DNA of 23,360 bases, from positions 4,019 through 27,378 of IMG/VR virus record IMGVR_UViG_3300030060_003997; one strand, 5' to 3'. Source of the DNA: a virus. Shown piece by piece: positions 3,231 to 23,360 of this stretch; position 1 is the first letter of the stretch, and each line of letters starts with the position of its first letter. A model generated the notes under the pieces. It made no database searches. It was not told where the DNA came from and saw only the letters and a list, made by a program, of their open reading frames with translations. The position numbers and the translations under genes are program-made.

Positions 3231-5010
3231 GGGTAGTGGCGGCGGTGGCGTTCAAGAGAGCGTAGTAACACAAACAAATCTTCCTGAGTATGCAGAACCA
3301 TTTTTTCAGGAACTGCTAGGTAGAACCGTATACGAATCAACTCGCCCTTATGAGGCGTTTCCTGGTCAGCGTATTGCTGAGTTCGATCCCTTTGAGCAGT
3401 ACGGCATGCAAGGCATGGCTGAGATGGCTCAGGCAGGTACTCCACAACAGATCACTGACGCATCGAACATTGCCGCTAATGTGGGCTTTCAAGATGTCGG
3501 TATGGGTATGGATATCGCTAGGGGGTTTAGACCTCCGATGCAGTACTCAGGATATCAGGCGGGTGATATTGGCGCAGGTTATGACGCAGGATTTTTAGGC
3601 CAAGGGTATAACGCTGGTCAACGTGATGTTGGGTATCAGGCCGGAACCTTTGATCCTGGTTATCAGGCCAGAGAGCGTCAGTCAGGTTTTGATATGGGGC
3701 CGCTAGAAAGTGGCTATCAAGCAGGCACGTTTGATCCTGGGTATCAAGCTAGGGACATACAGTCTCAATACACAGGTGAGATGGACTTAGGCTCAGGCTT
3801 TCAAGCAGGCACCATCGCTGATCCTGCAACACTAGAATCTTATATGAACCCGTACCAGCAGTTGGTGACGGACATAGAAAAACGAGAAGCTCAACGCCAG
3901 TCTGACATCCAAGGGGCAAACATATCGCAACAAGCAGCCTCATCAGGTGGTCTTGGTGGTTATCGTGAAGCGATCATGCAGTCAGAGCGAGAGCGCAACT
4001 TGGGTCAGCAGCTTGCCGACATACAAACTCGAGGTGGTCAAGCAGCGTTTGATCAAGCACAACAAGCATTTGAGGCTGACCGTGCAGCTAGACTACAAGA
4101 AGCTCAGTATGGTTTGACTGCTGCTGGTCAGCTAGATCAGGCTCAGCAACAACGTGAAGCGTTCAGTCAGTCGGCTTATCAGGCAGGTGAACAAGCGAGA
4201 CAACGTGCCGCTGAAATGGGAATGACCGCTCAGCAACAAGCTGATGCAGCACGACAAGCTCAGGAACAGTTCCGTCAGTCTGCATTTGGTCAGACCGCTG
4301 ATGTTGCTGCACAACGAGAGCAGTTCCAACAGCAAGCGTTCCAAGCAGCAGAGCAAGCAAGACAACGTGCTGCCGAGATGGGGATGACTGCACAACAGCA
4401 GGAAGACGCTGCAAGGCAAGCACAAGAGCGATTCCAGCAGGATCAGTTCAGCCAGAACGAACAGATGCGTTTGGCGCAGCAGCAAGAAAACCGTGCTGTA
4501 TTCCAAGCTCAGGAGAACGCTAGACAAGAGGCTGCAAGGCTTGGTCTTAGCGCACAAGAGATTCAAGAGCGTGTTAATCAGGCTGAGAATGAAGCTCGTA
4601 TGCGAGCAAGAGCAGAGAACGCCCAGCTTGCAGAGACACGCGCCCGTCTTGGGTTTGCTGGCATGGATGCTGATCGTGCGACAAGAGGCCAACAGCTTGA
4701 TGCATCAAGGCTCCTTGGTCAGCTAGGCACTGATGAGCAGCGTATGGCTTTCGAGCGGCTGCGTAACTTGCAAGCGGCTGGCGAGATCAGAAGAGGATCT
4801 CAACAGCGTGGTCTCGATATGGGATATCAGGACTTCTTGCGACAACAAGCGTTCCCAAGAGAGCAGCTTGCATTCTTTAGCCAGATGCTTCAGGGGCTAC
4901 CTGTTGCAGCAGGCACAACACAAGCTACATTCGGTGGCCCAAGTGATACACAACAGTTGCTTGGTGCCGGTATCGGCGGTGTAGGTCTGTATAACGCCAT
5001 GAGAGGCTGA
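3223..5010 (+). CDS. Gln/Ala-rich repeat structural protein, 595 aa
   Basis: I place the start at ATG 3223 rather than the in-frame ATG at 3169, because 3223 has an AGGAG site nine bases upstream and overlaps the previous stop as neighbouring genes do. Residues 110-195 carry degenerate GYQAG/GYDAG repeats. A motif SYMNPYQQLV follows and is typical of such phage proteins. From about residue 280 to 460 the protein is a long Gln/Ala/Glu/Arg coiled coil with a 54-residue period. The end is Gly-rich (LLGAGIGGVGLYNAMRG). The N-terminus is a Gly run (GKGSGGGG). It is likely an internal virion or tail-associated protein; no enzymatic motif is visible. Confidence 0.75.
   Translation: MGKGSGGGGVQESVVTQTNLPEYAEPFFQELLGRTVYESTRPYEAFPGQRIAEFDPFEQYGMQGMAEMAQAGTPQQITDASNIAANVGFQDVGMGMDIARGFRPPMQYSGYQAGDIGAGYDAGFLGQGYNAGQRDVGYQAGTFDPGYQARERQSGFDMGPLESGYQAGTFDPGYQARDIQSQYTGEMDLGSGFQAGTIADPATLESYMNPYQQLVTDIEKREAQRQSDIQGANISQQAASSGGLGGYREAIMQSERERNLGQQLADIQTRGGQAAFDQAQQAFEADRAARLQEAQYGLTAAGQLDQAQQQREAFSQSAYQAGEQARQRAAEMGMTAQQQADAARQAQEQFRQSAFGQTADVAAQREQFQQQAFQAAEQARQRAAEMGMTAQQQEDAARQAQERFQQDQFSQNEQMRLAQQQENRAVFQAQENARQEAARLGLSAQEIQERVNQAENEARMRARAENAQLAETRARLGFAGMDADRATRGQQLDASRLLGQLGTDEQRMAFERLRNLQAAGEIRRGSQQRGLDMGYQDFLRQQAFPREQLAFFSQMLQGLPVAAGTTQATFGGPSDTQQLLGAGIGGVGLYNAMRG
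3547..3816 (+). repeat. Degenerate GYQAG coding repeats
   Basis: Within the 595-aa protein gene, codons for G-Y/F-Q/D/N-A-G recur about every 8-14 residues. The clearest pair encodes GYQAGTFDPGYQAR twice, beginning at 3631 and 3712, a period of 81 bases (27 residues). The copies differ mainly at third codon positions, so selection has kept the protein motif rather than the DNA. Confidence 0.8.
4174..4605 (+). repeat. Tandem 162-bp (54-aa) coiled-coil repeats
   Basis: Three copies begin at 4174, 4336 and 4498, exactly 162 bases apart. The first two share EQARQRAAEMGMTAQQQ followed by DAARQAQE; the third is degenerate (ENARQEAARLGLSAQE). A shorter, more diverged copy starts at 4066 (FEADRAARLQEAQYGLTAA), 108 bases before the first full copy. 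The repeat encodes Gln/Ala/Arg-rich helix, so unit number could set the length of a coiled coil. Confidence 0.85.
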
Positions 5011-5012
5011 TA

Positions 5013-7394
5013 GTGAACATATTAGAAATCGAAGACATGGTTAAAGGCTTGCCTGATCAAGCCTTACAGAAAGAAGCTAAGCAACCTACAGGACGAATCC
5101 CACAGTTCTTGGTCGTATCTGAGATACAGAGGCGTGGTGATATGCGTCAACGGTTTCAGAAACGTCAAGAGAATCAAGGCACTGTAAAGGATCAGGTGAT
5201 GCAGCAGGGTATCGCTGCTATGGGTGCCCCGCAGCCTGAGATGCAGGCGCTTGCTGGTGGGCCATCTATGCCCCCTCAAGGCATGCCTCCACAAGCTATG
5301 CCTCAAGGGATGCCTCAGCAGCCTCCTATGGGTATGTATGCTGGCGGCGTGGTTCAAATGGCTAATGGTGAAGAGGTTCCGTTTGGTGGGCCTGGGCCAA
5401 TAACTGCTGAAGAGTATGAGAACGATCCAAGACGCCTAGCTTTTATTGATGAAAGAATGCAGTACCTGCAAGACTTGAAGGATCAAGGCTTTACTATGGA
5501 TGACATACTAGCCAGCTTAGAAGGATCATATTTTGATACCGCTGGCGAAGCATCATTGCAAACAGTTGCTGGTACGCCTTCTTCCACAGTTATGGCACCT
5601 AATACAGTTGGTGTTGGTCGTGAAATGCAAAACATTCCAATGAGCGGCATCGTTCGTCCTGGCAATGCAGCATACGATGCGTTACAGCAGGTGTTTGGCG
5701 GGACTAGCCCGACAGAGACCCAACCATTTTCGCCTCCACCTTCCATGATTCCTACGCAAGATATGTATGATCAGAATGTTGGCGGTTTTAAGAGGGTGGT
5801 AGACCAAGACCCCTCCAGTTATCCAAACATAACTCAGTTTCCAATAACCGAATCTGACCGGCTGTATGCTCAAGAGCTTAGTAGGATGGAAGGCCAAACA
5901 GTCCTACCAGAGCCAACAGATCCTGCAAGAAAGGCTCGAACTAAAGAGTTACAGCTAAAAGAGTATGGAGAAATGATTCGCCAGCAATCTCAAGATAGGC
6001 GAAACAGAGAGGCAAGCCCTGCTGTTGGTAGCTTTACTCAGACCCCATCGCAAAGAGGGATTGGTAGCGCACCAGAAGGCACCGCTGATGCTTTGATGGC
6101 AAGTATACAATCCCTTAGAGCACCATTTGGTGGTGAAGTTCAAGCCAGTGAAGTAGAAGGTGGCACCCCTGACATATCCAAAGAGCCTGGTGCTGGAGCT
6201 AGTTTCCGAGACCTTACTAGGGTGAGTACGGTTGATCTTGCAAACCCAGATCTTATTCAATCTATCCTAGCCCCTGACGCAAAGGGTGGGTTTAACGATA
6301 AGTATGGAGTAATCCCAGTTGACTACAAAGATACATCAGGAGATGGCACCGCCGGTAAATCCCTTCAAGGCACTGGATCTAAAACGGATGCAACCGCTAA
6401 CGTTTACCAAAGCTCAATGGATGCTATAGATGACATAAACAGAGACACTGCCGAAGCCGATGTGTCAAAAGCTAGGGCGCTTCTCACACCTAAAGAAGGC
6501 GAGCAATCACTAGCTGATAAGCTAAGAGGAAAGGTTGGGCTAGGAACAACCGATTACAGCGGTTTGGTTCAAAGTTATACGCCTGATTTCGGTCAATACA
6601 TGCCTGACTACGAAAGGCTGATTTCAAGCCAAGAAGATCGGGCACAACGCATACGCGATGAAGCGAGAAAAGAAGCTGGCGCTCAGGCACTGATTCAGTT
6701 AGGTGCCGGTATTGCTGGTGGAAATTTGGCTGGTGGTATATCTAAGGCTGGACAAACTGCCGCCGACATTAGACGGCAAGGTAGAAAAGAGGCGAGTGCT
6801 GAAGAGCAGTTGTCTACCCGCATGATGATGGCCCAACAGCAAGCTAGAATGGATCTTGGAATCAAGACCGAAGAGTCTAGGGTGAGGACTGCTGAAGCAG
6901 CAAGCGAGCGAGCCATCAGAGCTTATGAGTCTGACCGTAAAGGCGAACTGGCTGCTGCCGGAATAGAAGCTGATCAGATCAATAGACTTGTCGGTGTTGA
7001 ACTGGAGGCTGCTAAGCTTCTTGCCGCCCAAGATGAGGCAGACAGAAAGTTTGCTCTTGATGCTTTGACTGCAAAAATATCCGCACAAAGGTATGCGGAT
7101 CTAGCAACAGAGTCGCAAAGACGGGCTTACACACAAGAGCTTTCTTTGTATGCGCCTACAATATCCGCAAGGATTGAAGACTTTATACAAGATTACACTG
7201 GCCCTAATGGAACTCCAAGCCCAGCAGAGATTCGTGAATTTGCAGAAAATCTAATGGTTGGATTTGGCTTGGTTAATCCTAGAGATGACATTCAAACTGG
7301 CGATAAGGAAGGTGGTATCCCACAGGCGACAGAAACTCCTGACGCAATCCTGACGCCAGAAAACGATCCGCTCAACTTGAGAAATGCACAGTAA
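5013..7394 (+). CDS. Met/Pro/Gln-rich virion-type protein, 793 aa
   Basis: The start is GTG two bases after the preceding stop, with a GAGG-type site at about 5002. The first 60 residues (EDMVKGLPDQALQKEA, then PTGRIPQFLVVSEIQRR) form a conserved N-terminal module that I recall from many environmental phage structural proteins. Residues 85-108 are a low-complexity M/P/Q repeat (MPPQ, MPQG units), followed by MYAGGVVQMANGEEVPF, a short Gly-rich motif also common in these proteins. The middle is polar and probably disordered. Residues 520-720 are Ala/Glu/Arg-rich helix with an AGIAGGNLAGG hydrophobic patch. The stop overlaps the giant gene's start by one base. Probably an internal core or ejection protein; function inferred from position only. 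Confidence 0.75.
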   Translation: MNILEIEDMVKGLPDQALQKEAKQPTGRIPQFLVVSEIQRRGDMRQRFQKRQENQGTVKDQVMQQGIAAMGAPQPEMQALAGGPSMPPQGMPPQAMPQGMPQQPPMGMYAGGVVQMANGEEVPFGGPGPITAEEYENDPRRLAFIDERMQYLQDLKDQGFTMDDILASLEGSYFDTAGEASLQTVAGTPSSTVMAPNTVGVGREMQNIPMSGIVRPGNAAYDALQQVFGGTSPTETQPFSPPPSMIPTQDMYDQNVGGFKRVVDQDPSSYPNITQFPITESDRLYAQELSRMEGQTVLPEPTDPARKARTKELQLKEYGEMIRQQSQDRRNREASPAVGSFTQTPSQRGIGSAPEGTADALMASIQSLRAPFGGEVQASEVEGGTPDISKEPGAGASFRDLTRVSTVDLANPDLIQSILAPDAKGGFNDKYGVIPVDYKDTSGDGTAGKSLQGTGSKTDATANVYQSSMDAIDDINRDTAEADVSKARALLTPKEGEQSLADKLRGKVGLGTTDYSGLVQSYTPDFGQYMPDYERLISSQEDRAQRIRDEARKEAGAQALIQLGAGIAGGNLAGGISKAGQTAADIRRQGRKEASAEEQLSTRMMMAQQQARMDLGIKTEESRVRTAEAASERAIRAYESDRKGELAAAGIEADQINRLVGVELEAAKLLAAQDEADRKFALDALTAKISAQRYADLATESQRRAYTQELSLYAPTISARIEDFIQDYTGPNGTPSPAEIREFAENLMVGFGLVNPRDDIQTGDKEGGIPQATETPDAILTPENDPLNLRNAQ

Positions 7395-10300
7395 TGTCGC
7401 AACTGGCAAGGTTTAGAGAACAGTACCCGCAGTACGATGATATATCTGATTATGATCTAGCCACGAACCTGTATGACACATTCTATGACGGCAAGATAGA
7501 TAAGTCTGATTACTTTCAGCAGCTTGGAATAAACCAAGCGTATGAAGAGATGAGCACTGCCGAATACGCTCTTGGACTACCCTCTGAATTGCTTGCCGCC
7601 CCTGTCAGGGGTTTAGGCAAAGGGTTGTTGTCTGCTGGTGCCGGTCTTGCCCACATAGCTGACGCTGGTACTAATCTGGTTGGCCTTGAAGATCTTATTG
7701 ATAGCGGAGAAGAGAACGAGATTGTTCGTCTTGCCAACGAAGGTAAGCGAGCAATCGACTCTGCGATTGGTGTTGATGAAGCTTATAAAGATAGCTATGC
7801 AGTAAAGGTTGGTGAAGCGTTAGGTTCTATCGCCTCATTTGCTATACCTGGATTTGGGGTTGCTAAAGCTGCCGGTACTCTGGGTGCGAGCGCAAAAGCT
7901 GCTGGAGCACTTGGATCAGGGTCAACAATCGCTGCTGGTTCTGGTTTTGGTGCAGATGATCAAGCTCAAAGGATAGAGCAATCAAGGGCCAGAGGTATTG
8001 ATGTTGATCAAAGCACCGCTGATAAATCTATTCTTTTTGGTGGAATTGTTGGTGGCTTTGAGGCGTTTACACCATTAAGCGTTCTTAAAAAGATCCGAGG
8101 TATCAAAGAGCCGCAACAAAGATTAGAAGCCCTTGACGCTCAAAGACGCCAAGCGATTGACGCTGGCGACGAACTCCTCGCAGCCAACCTGATGAGCCAG
8201 CAGATACGACTATCAAAAGAAGTGTCTCGAGTTATGACGGGTATGGATCGTGTTAGAAGCTCATTGAGCACTGGCATGAAAGAGGGAATACAAGAAGCCG
8301 CAAATAGTTTGGCTCAAGATGCCATTCAATACGGTATGTACGATGACAACATTGAGGTAGGCGACACTCTTTGGGATGACTTCACCGTTGGATTTGGTGC
8401 CGGTACGTTAGTTGACGGTATCTCTGTCGGTGTTGCTAACCGCAGGAACAAGATAGTTCAGTCTTCACTAGAAGAGAAAGAGGGTGAACTAAGGAAGCAA
8501 GAAGAAGCACTTACAGAGATTTACTACGAAGAAGCTGAGAAGGCTAGGCGTCAAGCAGAGGTGGATGCTCGCTTAGGTAAAGAGTTTGATTATCAGCAAG
8601 AGTTAGAGGCTGGTGCTGTTCCAACTAGAGAGCAGCAGATTGCGGCAATAAATGCCTCTGCCCGTGGTGGTGATCCGTTTAATCCTCAACAACAGCTTGA
8701 TCCCAATGTCGGTGTATACGGGCAAACATCAGACACAGAGACAAATAAATTCATTGGCAAAGCTTATGCTTCACAGATAGCAAGAGATGCCGCCTTAAAC
8801 GAAGGCATTTTCCCTGACGCCGGAAGCTTTCAGATTGTAACCGAGCAGGTTTCTAGCCCAGAAGGCGTTAGAAACGAATACAAGGTGGTTCACTCCATCA
8901 ACGGTCAAGAGTACGGCACATCAGCAGTAGACTACGAAGCGGCGGCGCACCTAGCATCCAATCTAAATCAAGAGCTTATAAACCGAAACATCACTAACTC
9001 GGTCATTGATTCGTTAGACCTGACACCAGAGCCGTACACGCCAGAGCAATCGGCTTCGCTGTTTAGTGTTGGTCAAAAGCTTTTAAGACCTCAAGGTCAC
9101 ACCGTGACAGCCGAGGTGCTTAACGAAGCAGCAAGAACTACTTCAGGTGTTGGCTCCCCGTATGTCGAAGGTATAAGTATTGATGCACTACACCGGCAGC
9201 AATACGGTGTGCCCCCGTTAACTGATCGTGGTCAGAAGATCTACAAACCGCTATCCAACATGACCGCTGCTCAAAAGATAAACTTTGATCGCAGACAGAA
9301 TGGCTTACCAGAGAAAACAGAATTCACTCTAGAAGAAGCTAAGAGTGTTCTTGGTGACAGTTACCCTAGAGTCTTTGATGTGCTGGTTGGTGTCAAAGAG
9401 CCTGTCGCACCAGAAGGGCTAACAGACTTTGGCTCTGTAGGCGCGAGCGTTGCCCGTAGCCGACAGGAATACCAAGACGATAGGGCCACCAAGGCTGAGA
9501 TAAAGCAGGTCTTAGAATCAAAAAACATAGCCACTGACGTTGACTCTCCTCAAATGGCGTATGCTTTTGAGCAGATAGTTAACGAGTCAGACATCAGCAA
9601 GATGTCTCCCTCTCAAAGGTTGTTTCTTGTCAGTGAGTTGAAGAAGTTACCTATTGTTCCTGGTGATGCAGCGGTATCGTTGCCTGACTTCAGGCCCAAG
9701 CCATTCACAAGAACACAGTACAATGATGCGCTTGCGTTCGTCAGAGAAACTGGCGACGGCACAATTGAAAACATTCAATCTCAACTGGCTGATGTCGTTA
9801 GTGAAAAGCGCAAGCGTGTTGTCGCTACCGCGCTACAAAAAGCGTTGAAAGATTCTGGTGTTGTCCAGTCTGACGGCACCGTTCCTGAGATGGCAAGACT
9901 GCCATCACCTCCCCCAGTACCTGAGTTTGAAACAGAGCCGTATCAAGAGGATGTTTCTGAAGAGGCTCAAAACCTACAAAACAAACTATCAGAGACCCTC
10001 AAAGGTTTTGGGTTGGATGATGTCAGGTTGCGTATTCTTGACATCCTCAAGTACGGGCCTGTCACCAGAGATGGGCAGCTAATTCTTCAAGGCGAGCCTA
10101 TTGAAGACGCAGCAATCCAAGAAGCTCTCGGCTACTACAATCGATCCCCCAAGACAGTCTTCTTGGCGATAGACCGAGCCAATCAAATGGCTAGGGACGA
10201 TAGCCCAGAAGCAAGGGAAGCTGCACTTGCAGAAATTCTAGATCACGAAGTTGTTCACGCTGTTAGGGGTCTTGACCTGTGGAAGGATGATGAGTGGCGT

Positions 10301-13300
10301 CTGCTTGAAAATGCTGTACGAAAGAAGATATTCCCTAACACTGGTAATGAAACCTTCTACAACAACGCGCAACGACGATACGAAAACCTCTCCTCAGTTG
10401 GTCAAATGGAAGAGGCTGTTGCTGAGCTTATTAGATACGCAAGAAAAGATAAGTCACTTATCTCTGGCAAACCAAAGAACCTCATCAACCGAATGTTTAA
10501 TTTGTTTGAGCGAACAGGCAGCGCACTTAGAGGCACAGGCTTCCAAACGTTCGAGGATGTCCTTCAGAGGCTAGAGTCCGGCGAGATCGGTGCCAGAGAA
10601 CGGGGGCAGATTAGAACCCTGATGCTGCTTGAGAAGGGCTTACAGGCGGTGCCGGAGCGAGGCATAGGCCGAGAGATAGATGAGACATTTGATAAGGTAG
10701 CCCCGCTACCCGATGTGGTAGAAGAGGATCAAGAGGTTCTTGCAGAGGGCCAACCTGTCCCAGATATAGCAATGGCTAAGTCTTCTAGCCCGATAGAGGG
10801 GTTGGTAGAAAGAGCAAAGACAAAGTACGCAGACTATAACTCAGCAGTGGAAGAGGAGTTCTTTGGTAACTTCTGGCCCAAGGTCATGGCTGAGATCAAA
10901 GGCACGGTAGATCCAAGCAAGGTAAAGACCGCAGCCAAACGAGCAATCAGAGACGTTCAAACGTTTGTATCAAACAACCCCAAGTATTCAGATTACTACG
11001 CCGAGGATATGCGAGCGATCAAGGCCGCTCTCGAAGAAGAGTACGGCACCATCACCGACGATGACATGTTGTTTTATCAGGTTGCTAACGGCCTGACATC
11101 ACCAGCCACCGTGTTGTCGGCGAACGTAGGTGACGCTCTCAATCTGCTTGGTTTGTTTAAGCAAAAAGGCAACTTGAATGACATTGAGCTAGGGCTTAGT
11201 CCCAAAGGCAATCGGGTTGTAGCAAGCTCACCTTTCCAAATATCAGGCACCACTGCACCAACTAAAGCGATGTCGCTCAAGGTTTTTGATTCTTTAGTGC
11301 AGACATTCGCCAATGAACCCAACCCAGTTCAAGCTGCTGTTGACTATCTGCGTGAGGGTGTCACACCCAAAGAGCTTCAAGCGTTTAACAAAGAGATGGG
11401 ATACAAGAGCAACGTATCCGGCATGGGTGCCATCAAGTCGCTTGTGAAACAGGCAACGGGTCAAGACGAACTCATTCCAAGGATGTTTATCTTTGGCAAA
11501 AAGATTGGTTCATACACCCTGAACTTGACAGGTGACTCACGATACACAACCATTGACGTATGGGAATCTAGGTTTATACGCAGCTACTTCGAGGGCTTGT
11601 TTGAGAAGAACACTGGTGTCCCTGTCACGGTAGACGAAGACAAGTTATTTCAAGAATTCTCTACTATATTCAAGCAAGAGTACGACAAGATCTCAGGTAA
11701 GGCGAACGATCCAGCGTCACTGCAAGCGATGCGATGGTTCTACATGATCAACTCAGCAAAAGAAGCGGGATATCGAGGAGCATCTACCAATGAAACCATT
11801 TCAGAAATCACCAAACGACAACTCGAAAGGACTAGAAAAAGACGCAATGCAGGCAGGAACCTTAGCGATGCAACGCCTAATACAGAAATACTCGCGGCAA
11901 GAGTCGAGGAAAGCCAACAAGCAGCAGAAGAGTTCTCCAACCGCAATGCAGAAGGATCAATAGTACACGCAGCGGATCAAAACCCAGATGTTAAATTTGC
12001 AGTAGCTCAACAAGAAATGTTGGACGGTGCAACGCCGTTATCAATTCAATCCAACAGCCACACCCTTGGCAACAGATTCGTCTATCAGATACAAGACAAG
12101 CTTGTTGGCTTTAAGAATGTTGAAAAACAAATCAACGACTGGCGCAAAAGTGTCGGCCTAAAGGAACTGCCTGAGTCTGCGTCACCATACAGGGGCGAGG
12201 AAAGCGTTCCTGGTAAGATTGGTTTTGCCGGTAGAGAGTTTGAAGAGAACAGAAAGAGACCCCTTGCCAACAAGATAGCAGACCTCAAGCTTGATCTTGA
12301 TGAGATAGATGAGTTCCTTACCTTGCGTCACGCAATTGAGCGCAACAAAACTATCAGCCTAAGAGACCCGCAACGTGACCCAGAGACAAATCCAGGGTCT
12401 GGTTCTTTGAAGACGGGTGAAAAGCTTACCGATAGCTTTGTTAAAGATCGGATGAGAAACAAGTACGGCATGCAGTGGAGTGATGATACCGGCACATGGA
12501 GCGGCGGTAACAGCAGAGCCAAGAAGTTTTTGGATGTCGCAAGCGATCTTGACCAGATCGTTCGAGAAACAATGAACACCACAGTAGCTGGCGGGTTGAT
12601 CTCCAAAGAAAATGCCGATGTGATTAGCGATGCTTACAAATACTATGCCCCACTGAGGGGTAAAGAAATTGAAGATGACTACGCTGAGTCAGTTATTACC
12701 AGCAGCAGCTTGAGCACCAAGGGCAAAGAGACATTGAGAGCGATGGGCCGAGAGTCTGCCGCTCAATCCCCGCTTGGTCACATAATGCTCAACGCTGAAC
12801 GAGCGATTGTGCGTTCGATCAAGAACAAAGAGTTCGGACAAAGGCTTGTTAATCTAATCAAGTCATCACCCGATGATTCGTTCTGGCGCGTGATATCACC
12901 TGATGACCCAAGGATGTCGAGGGGCTTTGAGAAGAAGTTCACTTACGTTGGTAGTGATCCAGAGCTACAAGGGCAAAAGTTTACCGAGATACCAAAGGGA
13001 GCTAACCGCAAAGACTTCCTGCAACTGATTACCGTCAAGCCAGATTTCTTGTCACCAACAATGGACAGCGATTTGATCGGGGTGAAGATTGACGGTCAAC
13101 AGGTTTACGTTGAAATAACAGACAAGCGTATGCGTGATGCAATCATCTCGTTTGACGTGGGCACTGTTGACGGTTTGGTGCAGAAGTTCAGCGTAGTTAA
13201 CCGATGGTTGTCTATGGTCAATACATCTCTGAACCCTGAGTTTGTGATTGGTAACTTTTCGCGTGATGTTCAAACAGCAATCTTCAATATCCTTGGCGAA

Positions 13301-14929
13301 CAAGATATGTCGCAAGGTAAAGCGAAGGATCAAGCGTTAGTTCGCAAGGTTATGCTGGATGTTATCCCATCGATGGGTGTTTTCTATAAAGGTTTAAGAA
13401 GATACAACCCCAAGACTGGTAGCTTGACTGATGCGATCACAGGCATTAGCAGTAAAGACAAGGCTGATTTCCTTGAGTTTATGCAAGCTGGGGCAAAGGC
13501 TGATTGGTTTCACTCAAGACCGCCAGAGGATCAAGTCAAAACTATCAATTCCATGATTGAGATGGCTAATGGAACCTTCAAGGGCAACTTCAAGACTGGT
13601 TTCAATGCTGTAGCTAACTTCGTTGAAGACGCTAATTCGTCGGTAGAAAACGCTGTACGGCTTGCAACGTTCAAAGCATCAAGAGATGAGATGCTAAACG
13701 CTGGAGTGCCAAGGGATGAAGCGGTCAAGAGGGCGGCAAGCCTTGCAAAGAACCTGACCATTAACTTCAACCGAAAGGGTATGAAGGGTGACTTCCTAAA
13801 CTCGCTGTACTTGTTCTTCAACGCAAGCGTTCAAGGAACCGCCAACTTTGCTCGAGGTTTGTTTGGCCCTACCGGCAACCCATTTAGCAAAGAAGCCAGT
13901 CGAGTTAAGCAAGGTGCTGTAGGTGGGTTGATATTGATGGGTGCCCTTTCTGCCATGAGGGGTGAAGAGGAAAGCGAAGAGAATCCAAAGACAGGCAGAT
14001 CATATTATTCTGAGATACCTGACTACGTTAAAGAACGAAACATTGTCATCATGGCTGACAACGGCAAGAACTTTTATACCATACCGCTGCCGTATGGTTA
14101 CAACACGTTCCACGTCATGGGGCAAACCTCCTACGAAGTACTTAAAGGTAACGTGTCTCCAGCAAAAGGCTCTGCCGCTGTGCTAAGTGCGTTCGCTGGT
14201 TCGTTCTCTCCTGTAGGTTTTGGGCCAACATCCTTAGTTCCTACTATTGCTCAGCCCGGCGCTGAGCTTATGTCAAACGAGAACTTCTTTGGTTCCCCTA
14301 TATACAGAACCAACGTGGGTTTTGGCACAGAGTTGCCTGATTCCCAGATGCATATGGGTTCAACTAGGGCACCATTCATATATGTAGCTGACAAGTTGAA
14401 CTCGTTGTTTTATGGCAACGAGCAAGAGTCTGGACTAGTTGACGTGTCGCCCGACACGCTAGAGCACTTGACGGAGTTTATGTTCGGCGGCATGGGAACG
14501 TTTGGATTGAGAAACGCTGATGCTTTTGAAAAGTGGGCGAAGGGCGAGAAACTTCAATTACGTGAGATTCCTTTCGTTCGTCGTATCAAGGGTGAAACAG
14601 ATCTGCGTCAGAGCACTTCCGATTATTACGAGCGGCGCACTAAGATTCAACAGAAGGTTAGTCGGGTTGATGCTTTGCGTGGGCGAGAACGTGTTGAGTA
14701 TCGAAGAGAAAACCGTGCATTCCTAAATATGGCTGACACTCTGAAAGAAACAGAAAGAGAACTACAAGCTTTGAGGAAGCGACGTGCTCAAGCACGGGAG
14801 GATGCGCTTGAATCGCCACAAGCTGCATTGAAGGCTGCTCGAGTTGAGAAGAATATGTACGACGAGATTGCAGAAGAGCAAGCTAGATTCAACAAGCTAT
14901 ATGATCGGAAGGTTGGCAGAACCAAGTAA
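7394..14929 (+). CDS. Giant polyvalent virion protein with metallopeptidase-like and LPD38-like domains, 2511 aa
   Basis: The N-terminus (REQYPQYDDISDYDLATNLYDTFYDG) is a short module common at the start of phage giant proteins. Residues 137-230 are Gly/Ala-rich and hydrophobic, possibly membrane-active. Residues 951-955 are HEVVH, preceded by AEILD and followed about 50 residues later by EEAVAELIRYA, which together look like a zincin metallopeptidase site (HExxH plus a downstream Glu). A region near 1630-1760 (DEIDEFLTLRHAIERN) and residues about 1930-2330 (NPEFVIGNFSRDVQTAIFN, later NLTINFNRKG and FLNASVQGTANFARGLF) resemble the large polyvalent protein domains described by Iyer and colleagues, notably LPD38. 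The last 100 residues are charged coiled coil. Known polyvalent proteins are thought to be delivered with phage DNA and act early in the host. It is the last gene of the operon. Confidence 0.8.
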   Translation: MSQLARFREQYPQYDDISDYDLATNLYDTFYDGKIDKSDYFQQLGINQAYEEMSTAEYALGLPSELLAAPVRGLGKGLLSAGAGLAHIADAGTNLVGLEDLIDSGEENEIVRLANEGKRAIDSAIGVDEAYKDSYAVKVGEALGSIASFAIPGFGVAKAAGTLGASAKAAGALGSGSTIAAGSGFGADDQAQRIEQSRARGIDVDQSTADKSILFGGIVGGFEAFTPLSVLKKIRGIKEPQQRLEALDAQRRQAIDAGDELLAANLMSQQIRLSKEVSRVMTGMDRVRSSLSTGMKEGIQEAANSLAQDAIQYGMYDDNIEVGDTLWDDFTVGFGAGTLVDGISVGVANRRNKIVQSSLEEKEGELRKQEEALTEIYYEEAEKARRQAEVDARLGKEFDYQQELEAGAVPTREQQIAAINASARGGDPFNPQQQLDPNVGVYGQTSDTETNKFIGKAYASQIARDAALNEGIFPDAGSFQIVTEQVSSPEGVRNEYKVVHSINGQEYGTSAVDYEAAAHLASNLNQELINRNITNSVIDSLDLTPEPYTPEQSASLFSVGQKLLRPQGHTVTAEVLNEAARTTSGVGSPYVEGISIDALHRQQYGVPPLTDRGQKIYKPLSNMTAAQKINFDRRQNGLPEKTEFTLEEAKSVLGDSYPRVFDVLVGVKEPVAPEGLTDFGSVGASVARSRQEYQDDRATKAEIKQVLESKNIATDVDSPQMAYAFEQIVNESDISKMSPSQRLFLVSELKKLPIVPGDAAVSLPDFRPKPFTRTQYNDALAFVRETGDGTIENIQSQLADVVSEKRKRVVATALQKALKDSGVVQSDGTVPEMARLPSPPPVPEFETEPYQEDVSEEAQNLQNKLSETLKGFGLDDVRLRILDILKYGPVTRDGQLILQGEPIEDAAIQEALGYYNRSPKTVFLAIDRANQMARDDSPEAREAALAEILDHEVVHAVRGLDLWKDDEWRLLENAVRKKIFPNTGNETFYNNAQRRYENLSSVGQMEEAVAELIRYARKDKSLISGKPKNLINRMFNLFERTGSALRGTGFQTFEDVLQRLESGEIGARERGQIRTLMLLEKGLQAVPERGIGREIDETFDKVAPLPDVVEEDQEVLAEGQPVPDIAMAKSSSPIEGLVERAKTKYADYNSAVEEEFFGNFWPKVMAEIKGTVDPSKVKTAAKRAIRDVQTFVSNNPKYSDYYAEDMRAIKAALEEEYGTITDDDMLFYQVANGLTSPATVLSANVGDALNLLGLFKQKGNLNDIELGLSPKGNRVVASSPFQISGTTAPTKAMSLKVFDSLVQTFANEPNPVQAAVDYLREGVTPKELQAFNKEMGYKSNVSGMGAIKSLVKQATGQDELIPRMFIFGKKIGSYTLNLTGDSRYTTIDVWESRFIRSYFEGLFEKNTGVPVTVDEDKLFQEFSTIFKQEYDKISGKANDPASLQAMRWFYMINSAKEAGYRGASTNETISEITKRQLERTRKRRNAGRNLSDATPNTEILAARVEESQQAAEEFSNRNAEGSIVHAADQNPDVKFAVAQQEMLDGATPLSIQSNSHTLGNRFVYQIQDKLVGFKNVEKQINDWRKSVGLKELPESASPYRGEESVPGKIGFAGREFEENRKRPLANKIADLKLDLDEIDEFLTLRHAIERNKTISLRDPQRDPETNPGSGSLKTGEKLTDSFVKDRMRNKYGMQWSDDTGTWSGGNSRAKKFLDVASDLDQIVRETMNTTVAGGLISKENADVISDAYKYYAPLRGKEIEDDYAESVITSSSLSTKGKETLRAMGRESAAQSPLGHIMLNAERAIVRSIKNKEFGQRLVNLIKSSPDDSFWRVISPDDPRMSRGFEKKFTYVGSDPELQGQKFTEIPKGANRKDFLQLITVKPDFLSPTMDSDLIGVKIDGQQVYVEITDKRMRDAIISFDVGTVDGLVQKFSVVNRWLSMVNTSLNPEFVIGNFSRDVQTAIFNILGEQDMSQGKAKDQALVRKVMLDVIPSMGVFYKGLRRYNPKTGSLTDAITGISSKDKADFLEFMQAGAKADWFHSRPPEDQVKTINSMIEMANGTFKGNFKTGFNAVANFVEDANSSVENAVRLATFKASRDEMLNAGVPRDEAVKRAASLAKNLTINFNRKGMKGDFLNSLYLFFNASVQGTANFARGLFGPTGNPFSKEASRVKQGAVGGLILMGALSAMRGEEESEENPKTGRSYYSEIPDYVKERNIVIMADNGKNFYTIPLPYGYNTFHVMGQTSYEVLKGNVSPAKGSAAVLSAFAGSFSPVGFGPTSLVPTIAQPGAELMSNENFFGSPIYRTNVGFGTELPDSQMHMGSTRAPFIYVADKLNSLFYGNEQESGLVDVSPDTLEHLTEFMFGGMGTFGLRNADAFEKWAKGEKLQLREIPFVRRIKGETDLRQSTSDYYERRTKIQQKVSRVDALRGRERVEYRRENRAFLNMADTLKETERELQALRKRRAQAREDALESPQAALKAARVEKNMYDEIAEEQARFNKLYDRKVGRTK

Positions 14930-18849: not shown

Positions 18850-20616
18850 TTGAACCAAGAAGATTTAGAATATTGGATAAAATCCAATGGAGAGGGCAGG
18901 CACATCTGCCCAGTGTGTTCACCAGACAGAAAGAAGAAGCACGACAAGACGCTAAGTGTGCATCCAGATGGTGACTCAATACTATATCAATGCTGGCACT
19001 GTTCGTTGTCCGGCAAGATCAACGCCAAAGCTGAATGGGAAATCCCTGTTAAGGCACCCGTCAAAGCGATCAGCATGCCAAAGCAATCTGATAAGGCGCT
19101 TGGTGACGCATTCCTACGCAACAGAGGGATAGATCCTGAGTTGGTCAAGGGTTATCAGGTTGTCGCTGGCACCAAATACTTCGGCGGCGAGGGCGAGCAC
19201 AGTGCAGTCGGCTTCGCTTACGGCGAGAACGAGGCCATCAAGTGGCGATCCGTCGAGGGTAAGCGGTTCATTCAGGACGGTAGTGCTGGCACCTTGTGGG
19301 GCATTGAGCATGCCGACGAAGAAAAGACCAAGACTATCATCATCACTGAGGGCGAATGCGATTGCTTGGCGATTGTGTCAGCGATAGAGCGTTCGCCTGA
19401 CACGGTTGTGGTGAGTGTTCCTAACGGGGCACCCCGCAAGGTAAGCAACCGGCGGGTAGATCCCAGTGAGGACAGAAAGTTTGCATACCTATGGAAAGCA
19501 AAATCTGTCCTCGAGTCTGCCGAAAAGATTATCTTAGCAATGGACTCGGACGAACCAGGCGAGGCTCTGGGTGAAGAGATCATGCGTCGAGTGGGCAGAG
19601 CGAAGTGCTATCACCTTGAGTTGCCGGAGGATTGCAAAGATCCAAACGAGTTCTTATCGAAGCATGGTGCCGATGAACTGTGCCGCGCAGTAGATGAGGC
19701 GGTGCCGACTCCACTGGTGGGCGTCTATCAGGCAAACGACTACGCAGAGGACGTTAGCTTCCTCTATGACAAGGGTTTGATGGGTGGCCTTAGTACTGGG
19801 TTCAGTGGTCTTGACGGGCTTTACACGGTGTTACAGGGCCAGCTAACGGTGGTCACTGGTCAGCCAGGATCTGGTAAATCGGAGTTTATCGATGCGGTGT
19901 TGGTGAATCTGGCAGAGCAGCATCAATGGAAGTTTGCTATCTGCTCTTTCGAGAACCCGCCGCCGATGCATATTATCAAGCTCGCAGAGAAGCATGCCCG
20001 TAAGCCTTTCTTTGAGGGGTTGCATGATCGGATGACTCGAGAAGAGTTAGATGATGCAAGTGCATGGGTTAACAATCACTTTGCTTTCTTGGAAAGCAAG
20101 GACAGTGAAGCCGCGACAATCGACAACATAATAGATCGCACCAAGATGGCGGTGATGAGGTTGGGTTGCAGGGGTTTGGTGATTGACCCTTACAACTACA
20201 TCGCGCAGTCCAACACTGAGATGGAGCATCAAGCTATCTCTGAGATGCTAACCCGCATGGTGCAGTTTGCTCGTAGCCATGATCTACACATCTGGTTCAT
20301 CGCCCACCCAGCGAAGATGAGAGCCAACGACTCAGGCGTGATGCCTATACCTAACGGCAACCACATCTCAGGCTCCGCAGCTTGGTTTGCTAAAGCGGAT
20401 TGTGGGATCACGGTGCATCGTGCAGAAGAACACATTGAGGTGCATTCTTGGAAGTGCCGGTTCAAATGGGTTGGTACTGTGGGTAACTCAAAACTCACTT
20501 ATGATCCAGTCACTGGGCGGTATAGAGATTATGTGGTAGAGGTGGGTGACTCCCCGCCTAACCTTGGAGGCAGAGATTACAATGAAACGAAAAGCGACTG
20601 GGACATCGACTTCTGA
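18850..20616 (+). CDS. Primase-helicase, T7 gp4/Twinkle type, 588 aa
   Basis: The start is TTG at 18850 with AAGGAG about seven bases upstream. An N-terminal zinc ribbon has C20, C23, C48 and C51. The TOPRIM primase core shows TEGECDCLA (E167, E169, D171) and AMDSDEPG (D232, D234). The helicase half has Walker A GQPGSGKS (G337-S344), a Walker B strand ending at D446 (GLVIDPYN), and WFIAHPAK, as in RecA-fold DnaB/gp4 helicases. The length matches single-polypeptide phage primase-helicases (about 570-590 aa). It unwinds DNA and makes primers at the phage fork; the DNA polymerase must be elsewhere. The last 35 bases overlap the next gene. Confidence 0.92.
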   Translation: MNQEDLEYWIKSNGEGRHICPVCSPDRKKKHDKTLSVHPDGDSILYQCWHCSLSGKINAKAEWEIPVKAPVKAISMPKQSDKALGDAFLRNRGIDPELVKGYQVVAGTKYFGGEGEHSAVGFAYGENEAIKWRSVEGKRFIQDGSAGTLWGIEHADEEKTKTIIITEGECDCLAIVSAIERSPDTVVVSVPNGAPRKVSNRRVDPSEDRKFAYLWKAKSVLESAEKIILAMDSDEPGEALGEEIMRRVGRAKCYHLELPEDCKDPNEFLSKHGADELCRAVDEAVPTPLVGVYQANDYAEDVSFLYDKGLMGGLSTGFSGLDGLYTVLQGQLTVVTGQPGSGKSEFIDAVLVNLAEQHQWKFAICSFENPPPMHIIKLAEKHARKPFFEGLHDRMTREELDDASAWVNNHFAFLESKDSEAATIDNIIDRTKMAVMRLGCRGLVIDPYNYIAQSNTEMEHQAISEMLTRMVQFARSHDLHIWFIAHPAKMRANDSGVMPIPNGNHISGSAAWFAKADCGITVHRAEEHIEVHSWKCRFKWVGTVGNSKLTYDPVTGRYRDYVVEVGDSPPNLGGRDYNETKSDWDIDF

Positions 20617-21446: not shown

Positions 21447-21899
21447 TTACAAAAGTTTTCTCATCTTACGAACAGTCATAGAATCAACGTCCTCGGACAA
21501 CACTTCAGGCAACGTGCTGACATCGCCCAGTGTGAGGTCTTTGTACGACATATGACGTATCTTGCCATCGTGGGTGTAGAAGACAGTGACCTCATAAAGA
21601 GGGTCTTTTTGAGGGGGTTCAACTACTTCTTCGTCGCTGCCGCTGTTACACACATCTAGCATCCACTGATTGATTTCTGACTCAACCCACACTGTGGTTC
21701 TGCCCACTTTGCGAGGAGCGGGGAAGGTCTTGTCATTGACAATTTTATAAACAAAGCTCCTGCTTAATCCCGTCCGCTCCATTACGTCAGGTAATCTCAT
21801 AAACCGCTCTCTGCTCGCGTCTGTGAAGGTAGGCTCTTCCTCTCTCAGGATCTCATCTGCCAACCTTTTTATCGCGTCTGCATCTTCGATAATGCTCAT
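21447..21899 (-). CDS. AlpA-like DNA-binding regulator with C-terminal extension, 150 aa
   Basis: The ATG at 21899 shares one base with the preceding TGA and has GGAGG seven bases upstream. After a 30-residue helical head, residues 33-80 form the AlpA/excisionase-type winged helix: RFMRLPDVMERTGLSRSFVYK, then FPAPRKVGRTTVWVESEINQWM. In this family the fold binds DNA as a transcription regulator or excisionase. The extra C-terminal part (100-150) has two strands (LYEVTVFYTHDG, RHMSYKDLTLGD) and a helical end (DSMTVRKMRKLL), and is absent from short AlpA proteins of about 65-75 residues. No integrase is visible, so regulation is more likely than excision. Confidence 0.8.
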   Translation of the reverse strand: MSIIEDADAIKRLADEILREEEPTFTDASRERFMRLPDVMERTGLSRSFVYKIVNDKTFPAPRKVGRTTVWVESEINQWMLDVCNSGSDEEVVEPPQKDPLYEVTVFYTHDGKIRHMSYKDLTLGDVSTLPEVLSEDVDSMTVRKMRKLL

Positions 21900-22111
21900 C
21901 AAAGATCCTCCACTTTCTCTTGCAAGGAAGTCCAGGTATCTTTGAAGTGCTTGTTATCCTCTTCTAGGATACCGTGAAACCAAAAGCAAGTGCCGATGGT
22001 GCCGTGAATTCGGGGGTCATCAGAGGATGCCCCCATCAAACGCTGTAGCATATCGACTTCAGATTTAGTCAGAGTTACTTCGTATAACTGCTCATCTACA
22101 GCACTAGTCAT
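21899..22111 (-). CDS. Small acidic hypothetical protein, 70 aa
   Basis: ATG 22111 has GGAG seven bases upstream and overlaps the preceding gene's stop by eight bases; the stop is coupled to the AlpA-like start. The product has a strand (LYEVTLTKSE), a helix (VDMLQRLMGA), a Gly/Cys/Trp stretch (GTIGTCFWFHGILEED) and a final helix (WTSLQEKVEDL). The opening L-T-K-S-E-x-x-x-L-x-x-L-M resembles openings within the two genes upstream. No family recognised. Confidence 0.65.
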   Translation of the reverse strand: MTSAVDEQLYEVTLTKSEVDMLQRLMGASSDDPRIHGTIGTCFWFHGILEEDNKHFKDTWTSLQEKVEDL

Positions 22112-22909: not shown

Positions 22910-23360
22910 TTAGTTATCTGTTTGTTCGTCCAATGTACCATAACTTTCGTCCAATGATACTACTATTTTTCCAATCACTTCCACAAGCCTTGGGACAACG
23001 CTGTTGCCTAAAGCTTTAATTCTGTCCACCCGATGGGGAACCCCATGAGCCATTCGAGGAAGGGTGGATTCAGGGGGCCAGTCTCCCCCGCTTGAGAATT
23101 CACCAAGTCTGGGAGGCTGTTGGTCGGTAGTCTGCCCTTGGCCTCGAGGGTCTCGGCTTTCCTGCCGCCCTTGTAGTCCCTGGTTGTAGGGGTAGGCCAC
23201 AGAGCGGGGTCTTTGACCTGCTTTGACAGGTTGAGTTGGTTCGCGGTGTCCATGTTCTTCCAGTCGGAGTTCATCGGAGTGCGCCACAATCCAGACTCGG
23301 TCTCGTCGGTGGCGAGCATCGACGGCACAAGCTGGTAGTACAAACGTCCTGACTTCGTAG
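22910..23360 (-). CDS. C5-cytosine DNA methyltransferase, C-terminal part (5' truncated)
   Basis: The frame is open to the window edge (codons from 23359). It reads VDARHRRDRVWIVAHSDE, matching motif VIII of C5-methyltransferases (Q/H-x-R-x-R-x-x-I-V-A). A hydrophilic spacer of about 75 residues follows (VAYPYNQGLQGRQES and PPRLGEFSSGGDW). Then comes PRMAHGVPHRVDRIKALGNSVVP, motifs IX-X with the conserved G-N-S-V. Catalytic PCQ and ENV motifs must lie outside the window. Such phage enzymes methylate cytosine to avoid host restriction. The same DNA has a second plausible frame (23008-23360). A short acidic tail (DESYGTLDEQTDN) ends the protein. Confidence 0.8.
   Translation of the reverse strand, partial: YEVRTFVLPACAVDARHRRDRVWIVAHSDELRLEEHGHREPTQPVKAGQRPRSVAYPYNQGLQGRQESRDPRGQGQTTDQQPPRLGEFSSGGDWPPESTLPRMAHGVPHRVDRIKALGNSVVPRLVEVIGKIVVSLDESYGTLDEQTDN
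23008..23360 (-). other. Second frame antisense-independent overlap within the methyltransferase end
   Basis: On the same strand, one base out of frame, a frame open to the window edge reads SGRLYYQLVPSML, SGLWRTPMNSDWKN, LWPTPTTRDYKGGRKAETL, then LNPPFLEWLMGFPIGWTELKL and stops. The L-W/L-P-T-P-T-x-R-D-Y-K-G motif and the later L-N-P-x-F-x-E-W-L-M-G-F-P-x-G-W-T ending are recurrent in phage proteins that I recall near or fused to DNA methyltransferases. Both frames therefore look meaningful. Whether this one is translated, is a frameshift product, or is a fossil of an older frame cannot be decided here. Confidence 0.4.

Follow-up and report, generated by a model that had tools for sequence, protein, structure and literature searches.

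Two overlapping frames at the edge of the contig

The window, the whole 23,360-nucleotide stretch of viral DNA analyzed here (positions 4,019 to 27,378 of IMG/VR record IMGVR_UViG_3300030060_003997), carries the locus under study at its very end, where window position 23360 is base 27378 of the 27378-base record (G000). Two overlapping frames on the minus strand, frame A and, shifted by +1, frame B, are both stop-free up to the contig edge. Frame A (22910..23359, 149 aa) matched phrog_363 (1.1e-16), and its translation corresponds to the 3' part, from motif VIII to the stop, of the putative alpha subunit of a cytosine-C5 methyltransferase. Frame B (23008..23358, 116 aa) matched phrog_1008 (1.7e-17) and phrog_26627 (2.2e-10) and would be the 3' part of the beta subunit. 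An earlier note made from the sequence had described two same-strand frames here, each with a phage protein signature; these matches bear it out, and the peptides that it named were found in the window, with SVAYPYNQGLQGR and LWPTPTTRDYKGG on shared bases.

In frame A, motif VIII (HRRDRVWIVA) is located at 23282..23311 and motif X with the C-terminal helix (RIKALGNSVVPRLVEVIGKIV) at 22961..23023 on the minus strand; these two are the only catalytic motifs of A present in the window. The helix corresponds to one with a pLDDT of about 90 in the A protein of the relative L010. Between them (23024..23281, minus strand), the recognition region as read in frame A is hydrophilic and is predicted to be a disordered linker from the catalytic core to motif X, its L010 counterpart having a pLDDT of about 40-50. 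The earlier note had assigned HGVPHRVDRIKALGNSVVP to motif IX/X. This peptide does comprise motif X plus the preceding stretch, but the motif IX-like peptide, LNPPFLEWLMGFPIGWT, sits in frame B.

Frame B, also on the minus strand, enters the window with the end of its N-terminal domain (YYQLVPSMLATDETESGLW, 23284..23340), which overlies motif VIII. It continues with two units opening with W-x-TP, namely putative recognition cassette 1 of family F4 (WRTPMNSDWKNMDTANQLNLSKQVKDPA, 23203..23286) and cassette 2 of family F0 (LWPTPTTRDYKGGRKAETLEAKGRLPTNSLPDLV...GP, 23074..23202), and closes with the motif IX-like end (LNPPFLEWLMGFPIGWTELKL, 23011..23073). Because the contig ends within the gene, the start of B was studied in relatives; the window holds the 3' part only, and all that is said below on the 5' half is taken from relatives, the closest complete ones for frame A being L010, L011, and L015. 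Near the methyltransferase lie a DNA primase/helicase gene (18850-20616, plus strand; phrog_239, 5.3e-85) and an excisionase/regulator-like gene (21447-21902, minus strand; phrog_2790). At 7394-14929 (plus strand), the window also carries an ORF of 2511 aa with Large polyvalent protein domain 38 (PF18857, 9.6e-39) near the C-terminus.

Distribution, dual coding, and the start of frame B

The earlier note had proposed that homologues be sought for each frame separately, and tblastn searches with A or B landed on the same places in unrelated phages, with identities of up to 43% for A and 51% for B. The matches to either frame came from phages of Paenibacillus, Mycobacterium, Klebsiella, Escherichia, Lacticaseibacillus, and others, and the +1 frame was open across most of the methyltransferase gene in all phages fetched. 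Scans of viral contigs and bacterial genomes with B left 51, 80, and 80 loci. Among the 220 B-containing loci (219 relatives and the window, found by searching B), A overlaps B at the same phase in 219. No stand-alone B was present among them, and B as a stand-alone family was rejected. Five further ORFs have rearranged frames. Nine relatives were obtained in a plasmid search, among whose matches no EcoHK31I was identifiable.

No published description of nested phage methyltransferase genes was found in a literature search. Two GenBank records do annotate the same nested B gene, as ORF28 ("Mte8-like") inside ORF29 in phage K1H and as gp50 ("g49 internal gene") in phage Diva, but neither record gives it a subunit role. 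Other annotations vary. In phiKX1 (L009), frame B alone is annotated though the methyltransferase frame is open too, and in Mwe-JY08 (L008), a small hypothetical ORF is annotated within the region. The Roseovarius chromosome OX638333.1 carries five copies of the nested gene (L098-L102) with equal match scores, which suggests near-identical repeated prophages. In Klebsiella phage KpV2811 (L005, 2156-3514), B is without its usual stop and runs in frame into a downstream gene with an endonuclease VII domain, leaving 453 codons open; a B-endonuclease fusion or read-through is possible.

The two frames were compared codon by codon in 71 locus pairs, each locus entering one pair only; position 1 of A is the wobble position of B. 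The figures are strong but not fully independent, as close pairs share ancestry with other pairs. Upstream of B, where A alone is read, substitutions per codon at A positions 1/2/3 were.108/.061/.353. They were.112/.061/.193 from the B start to motif VIII,.206/.102/.109 from motif VIII to the B stop, and.096/.060/.312 in the A-only tail past the B stop. The free codon position is thus the third of A upstream, is strongly damped from the B start to motif VIII, becomes the third of B after motif VIII, and is again the third of A past the B stop, indicating that coding primacy passes from A through a mixture to B and back to A. The window follows the same pattern, with 15/1/3 substitutions at A positions 1/2/3 against L010 and 11/3/3 against L011. 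In the recognition region, 912 of 1085 changes at the B wobble position were synonymous in B (851 expected), and in the N-terminal part of B the corresponding count was 635 of 829 (624 expected; not significant), both from the 71 pairs. When the synonymous codons of A were re-drawn, B stayed open in a mean of 2.3% of trials, and when those of B were re-drawn, A stayed open in 3.4%. The dual coding of this stretch, which the earlier note had proposed as overprinting, is real and far beyond chance, with both frames under purifying selection; the common phase in 219 of 220 loci and the switch of the substitution pattern between frames both agree with that proposal.

These data also bear on the explanation that A is a complete enzyme and B a shadow ORF that shows similarity only because the codons of A are conserved. 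Some shared conservation is expected of any overlapping frames, but the wobble of A drops from.353 to.109 per codon while that of B becomes the fastest position, distant pairs conserve B about as well as A, and re-drawing A's synonymous codons closes B in about 98% of trials. This explanation is contradicted by the substitution pattern, the conservation of B, and the codon re-drawing, and we consider it extremely improbable.

In the clade of the window, an in-frame TAG immediately precedes the ATG of B, and most members have AAGGA or AGGGA upstream; the bases of this start signal read D-[IV]-R-x-L-D-G in A. In 87 of 205 loci, the 30 codons before motif IV contained an ATG with five or more Shine-Dalgarno bases, compared with 20.9 expected when the synonymous codons of A were re-drawn. 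By looser criteria (ATG, GTG, or TTG with four Shine-Dalgarno bases), a start was present in 186 of 194 loci, a count that carries no control. These signals argue that B could be started on its own and that frameshifting would not be needed.

The earlier note had also offered a programmed frameshift giving two alternative enzyme tails. A +1 shift near motif VIII would join A to B in a fusion with motifs I-VIII, the recognition region, and motif IX. The phase of the frames is right, such a fusion would hold all motifs but X, and one relative, L257, carries motifs I and VIII, a cassette, and motifs IX and X in one ORF in its DNA, on a single metagenome contig where an indel could be the cause. 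However, B is already open and constrained over the roughly 100 codons that precede motif VIII, and start signals for it, an ATG with a Shine-Dalgarno sequence, are enriched. The predicted fusion would be without motif X, and the GTGG that recurs after motif VIII is accounted for by the Trp of B's W-x-TP. A programmed frameshift at this site is not supported and seems unlikely, and two separately started frames remain the preferred reading.

Division of motifs and the putative recognition cassettes

The earlier note had asked into which frame the upstream PCQ/ENV domain continues; in relatives it runs into frame A. In complete relatives, A carries motifs I-VIII and X in a Rossmann-like catalytic domain conforming to PF00145. 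The A protein of L010 matched Pfam PF00145 at 5.3e-45, and HhaI was matched in the PDB at 1.2e-17. In most members tested, this PF00145/HhaI match stops at motif VIII; the exceptions are L031, which spans the whole PF00145 profile, and Diva, which reaches position 227. None of the nested A's carries motif IX, whereas canonical enzymes of the same genomes carry it in their own frame. Alpha alone does not hold a target-recognition domain (TRD) and motif IX in a single chain, the region from motif VIII to X of L010 A being predicted disordered. In the AlphaFold model of this protein (71 sequences), residues 1-160 scored mostly >90, residues from about 165 to 312 scored 40-50, and the motif X helix about 90. 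Foldseek aligned the model to half of HaeIII and HhaI. A thus looks like the large domain of a C5 methyltransferase without the small domain.

The complementary features are found in B. A small motif IX profile picked out the end of B, in the expected position, in all 209 loci (median 2.2 bits, against about -3 for controls); hhalign paired LMGFPIGW with motif IX at E 0.001 over 8 columns. Taken alone, this short match of B's end is modest. AlphaFold predicted B alone poorly (pLDDT 64.5, pTM 0.31); the model had no fold match among PDB structures, B had no match in Pfam or NCBIfam, and a PDB sequence search with the B profile gave chance keratin matches only. Over most of its length, phrog_1008 is frame B itself; its label, "DNA methyltransferase," implies such an enzyme, although B is without any catalytic motif. 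The lack of a recognizable fold or of a Pfam or NCBIfam match for B alone would suit a separate overprinted protein unrelated to methyltransferase activity, for example an anti-restriction or regulatory factor. Against it, B is better conserved exactly where C5 methyltransferases keep the TRD and motif IX, A is without both, and in some relatives B takes over motif X too. We regard a separate protein as improbable; the two tails, one with motif IX and one with motif X, seem to complement each other within a single enzyme.

The part of B between motifs VIII and IX is made up of consecutive units, each opening with W-x-TP. In 209 loci, 499 units with a median length of 35 aa fell into 147 similarity families, 28 of which have five or more members, and formed 153 architectures, with 1-5 cassettes per B. 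The order is F4-F0 in the window and F14-F4-F2-F0 in its near relative L010; aligned to L010, the window is without exactly 138 and 96 bases and has 95.4% identity elsewhere. A cassette with 100% protein identity is shared by loci whose B N-terminal parts are 46-49% identical (L018, L021, and others versus L204), which points to exchange between loci. As judged from these comparisons, phages acquire, drop, and swap cassettes as in-frame blocks that are free of stops in either frame. They are probably tandem target-recognition domains, by analogy with the multispecific C5 methyltransferases of the Bacillus phages SPR, phi3T, and H2, whose variable region holds tandem recognition domains of about 40 aa. 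The likeness lies in tandem units at the place of the target-recognition domain; those enzymes are single chains, whereas here the cassettes lie on a separate beta subunit and each is also open in the frame of A. Each cassette may correspond to one recognition domain and set one target. In L162 (2119-2350), a second partial B with a cassette and motif IX directly follows the complete nested gene and is a possible cassette donor or remnant.

Natural rearrangements were observed among the relatives. In five Bacillota prophages (L138, L254, L255, L256, and L258), A ends soon after motif VIII and the B chain carries cassettes, motif IX, and motif X. Over this cassette-IX-X stretch, the A frame contained 7-29 stops in the four of these prophages that were scored, and the cassette SASD..GSHGGGQG.SLRTDI has no A-frame stops in Diva and several in L254. 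With motif X moved to B, the A frame there was free to close, as a mere linker would be. In L117 and L128, the frames rotate, with motifs IX and X in changed frames relative to A and B, and a second WLMGY-like peptide occurs in mid-gene.

A tree built from the catalytic part placed the nested family in one clade apart from canonical enzymes (100/99), with the motif-X-in-B form inside it. Given this position, the nested state looks old and the form with motif X in B looks derived, as far as the tree can tell. The earlier note's suggestion of an ancient frameshift fits in so far as an ancestral path from A (motifs I-VIII) to B (recognition region and motif IX) and back to A (motif X) can be traced; the history itself is a reconstruction. 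The most economical one would start from a one-frame ancestor in which a one-base displacement affected the recognition region and motif IX, which would make the N-terminal part of B and the linker of A the overprinted halves.

A proposed nested two-subunit methyltransferase

We propose, with a probability of roughly 85%, that the locus encodes one cytosine-C5 methyltransferase as nested alpha and beta subunits, similar to M.EcoHK31I, that protects phage DNA. Alpha (frame A) would be the catalytic large domain with motifs I-VIII and X. Beta (frame B) would start at an internal ATG shortly before motif IV and consist of an overprinted N-terminal domain, then 1-5 cassettes (about 35 aa each) in the place of the target-recognition domain, and finally motif IX. 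The two would assemble into one enzyme in which beta is the specificity subunit, and over the recognition region the A frame would serve only as a disordered linker tethering motif X to the catalytic core. The assembled enzyme would methylate phage DNA and thereby protect it from restriction, and cassette exchange would change its sequence specificity.

The smaller subunit of M.EcoHK31I is encoded by a frame inside the larger gene and has about 176 aa, a size resembling that of B's with one cassette. As published for M.EcoHK31I and M.EaeI, the larger subunit carries motifs I-VIII and X, and motif IX is in the smaller subunit only (PMC3404938). By this motif description, the division is the one met here. 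The predicted TRD of M.EcoHK31I was placed in the larger subunit (PMC3404938), however, whereas we argue for recognition in beta, and that enzyme has one specificity (YGGCCR), whereas 1-5 exchangeable cassettes occur here. M.AquI is naturally split between motif VIII and the distal recognition region, as here. Its division, with motifs IX and X in the second chain, is that of the five Bacillota relatives; the window differs from M.AquI in that A carries motif X and the genes are nested. C5 enzymes split between motif VIII and the TRD complement well, and a C-terminal helix kept linked to the large domain should, as discussed in the same work, preserve the fold (PMC5944983). The nested gene keeps the helix joined to the large domain and so has the arrangement discussed there.

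Four features appear to be new: how broad the family is, the placing of recognition on beta, the system of cassettes, and a natural series in which motif X has been transferred. We further consider it reasonably likely, if less so than the two-subunit enzyme itself, that this is a widespread phage and prophage family in which specificity is written as combinatorial cassettes of ~35 aa in one frame while the same bases provide a stop-free motif X linker in the other, dual-frame exchange between distant phages giving multispecific and quickly re-programmable methylation.

The nested gene occurs in contigs assigned to many bacterial phyla, and few long overlapping gene pairs on one strand in phages would be as widespread as this one. 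The finding accounts for common puzzling annotations, such as nested "Mte8-like" or "internal" genes and a methyltransferase-labelled PHROG without catalytic motifs. With catalysis and recognition in different frames, the substitution pattern shows directly how selection acts on each. Should every cassette set one target, they would together form a natural kit of recognition modules, and the methylation pattern of a phage would be predictable from its cassette string.
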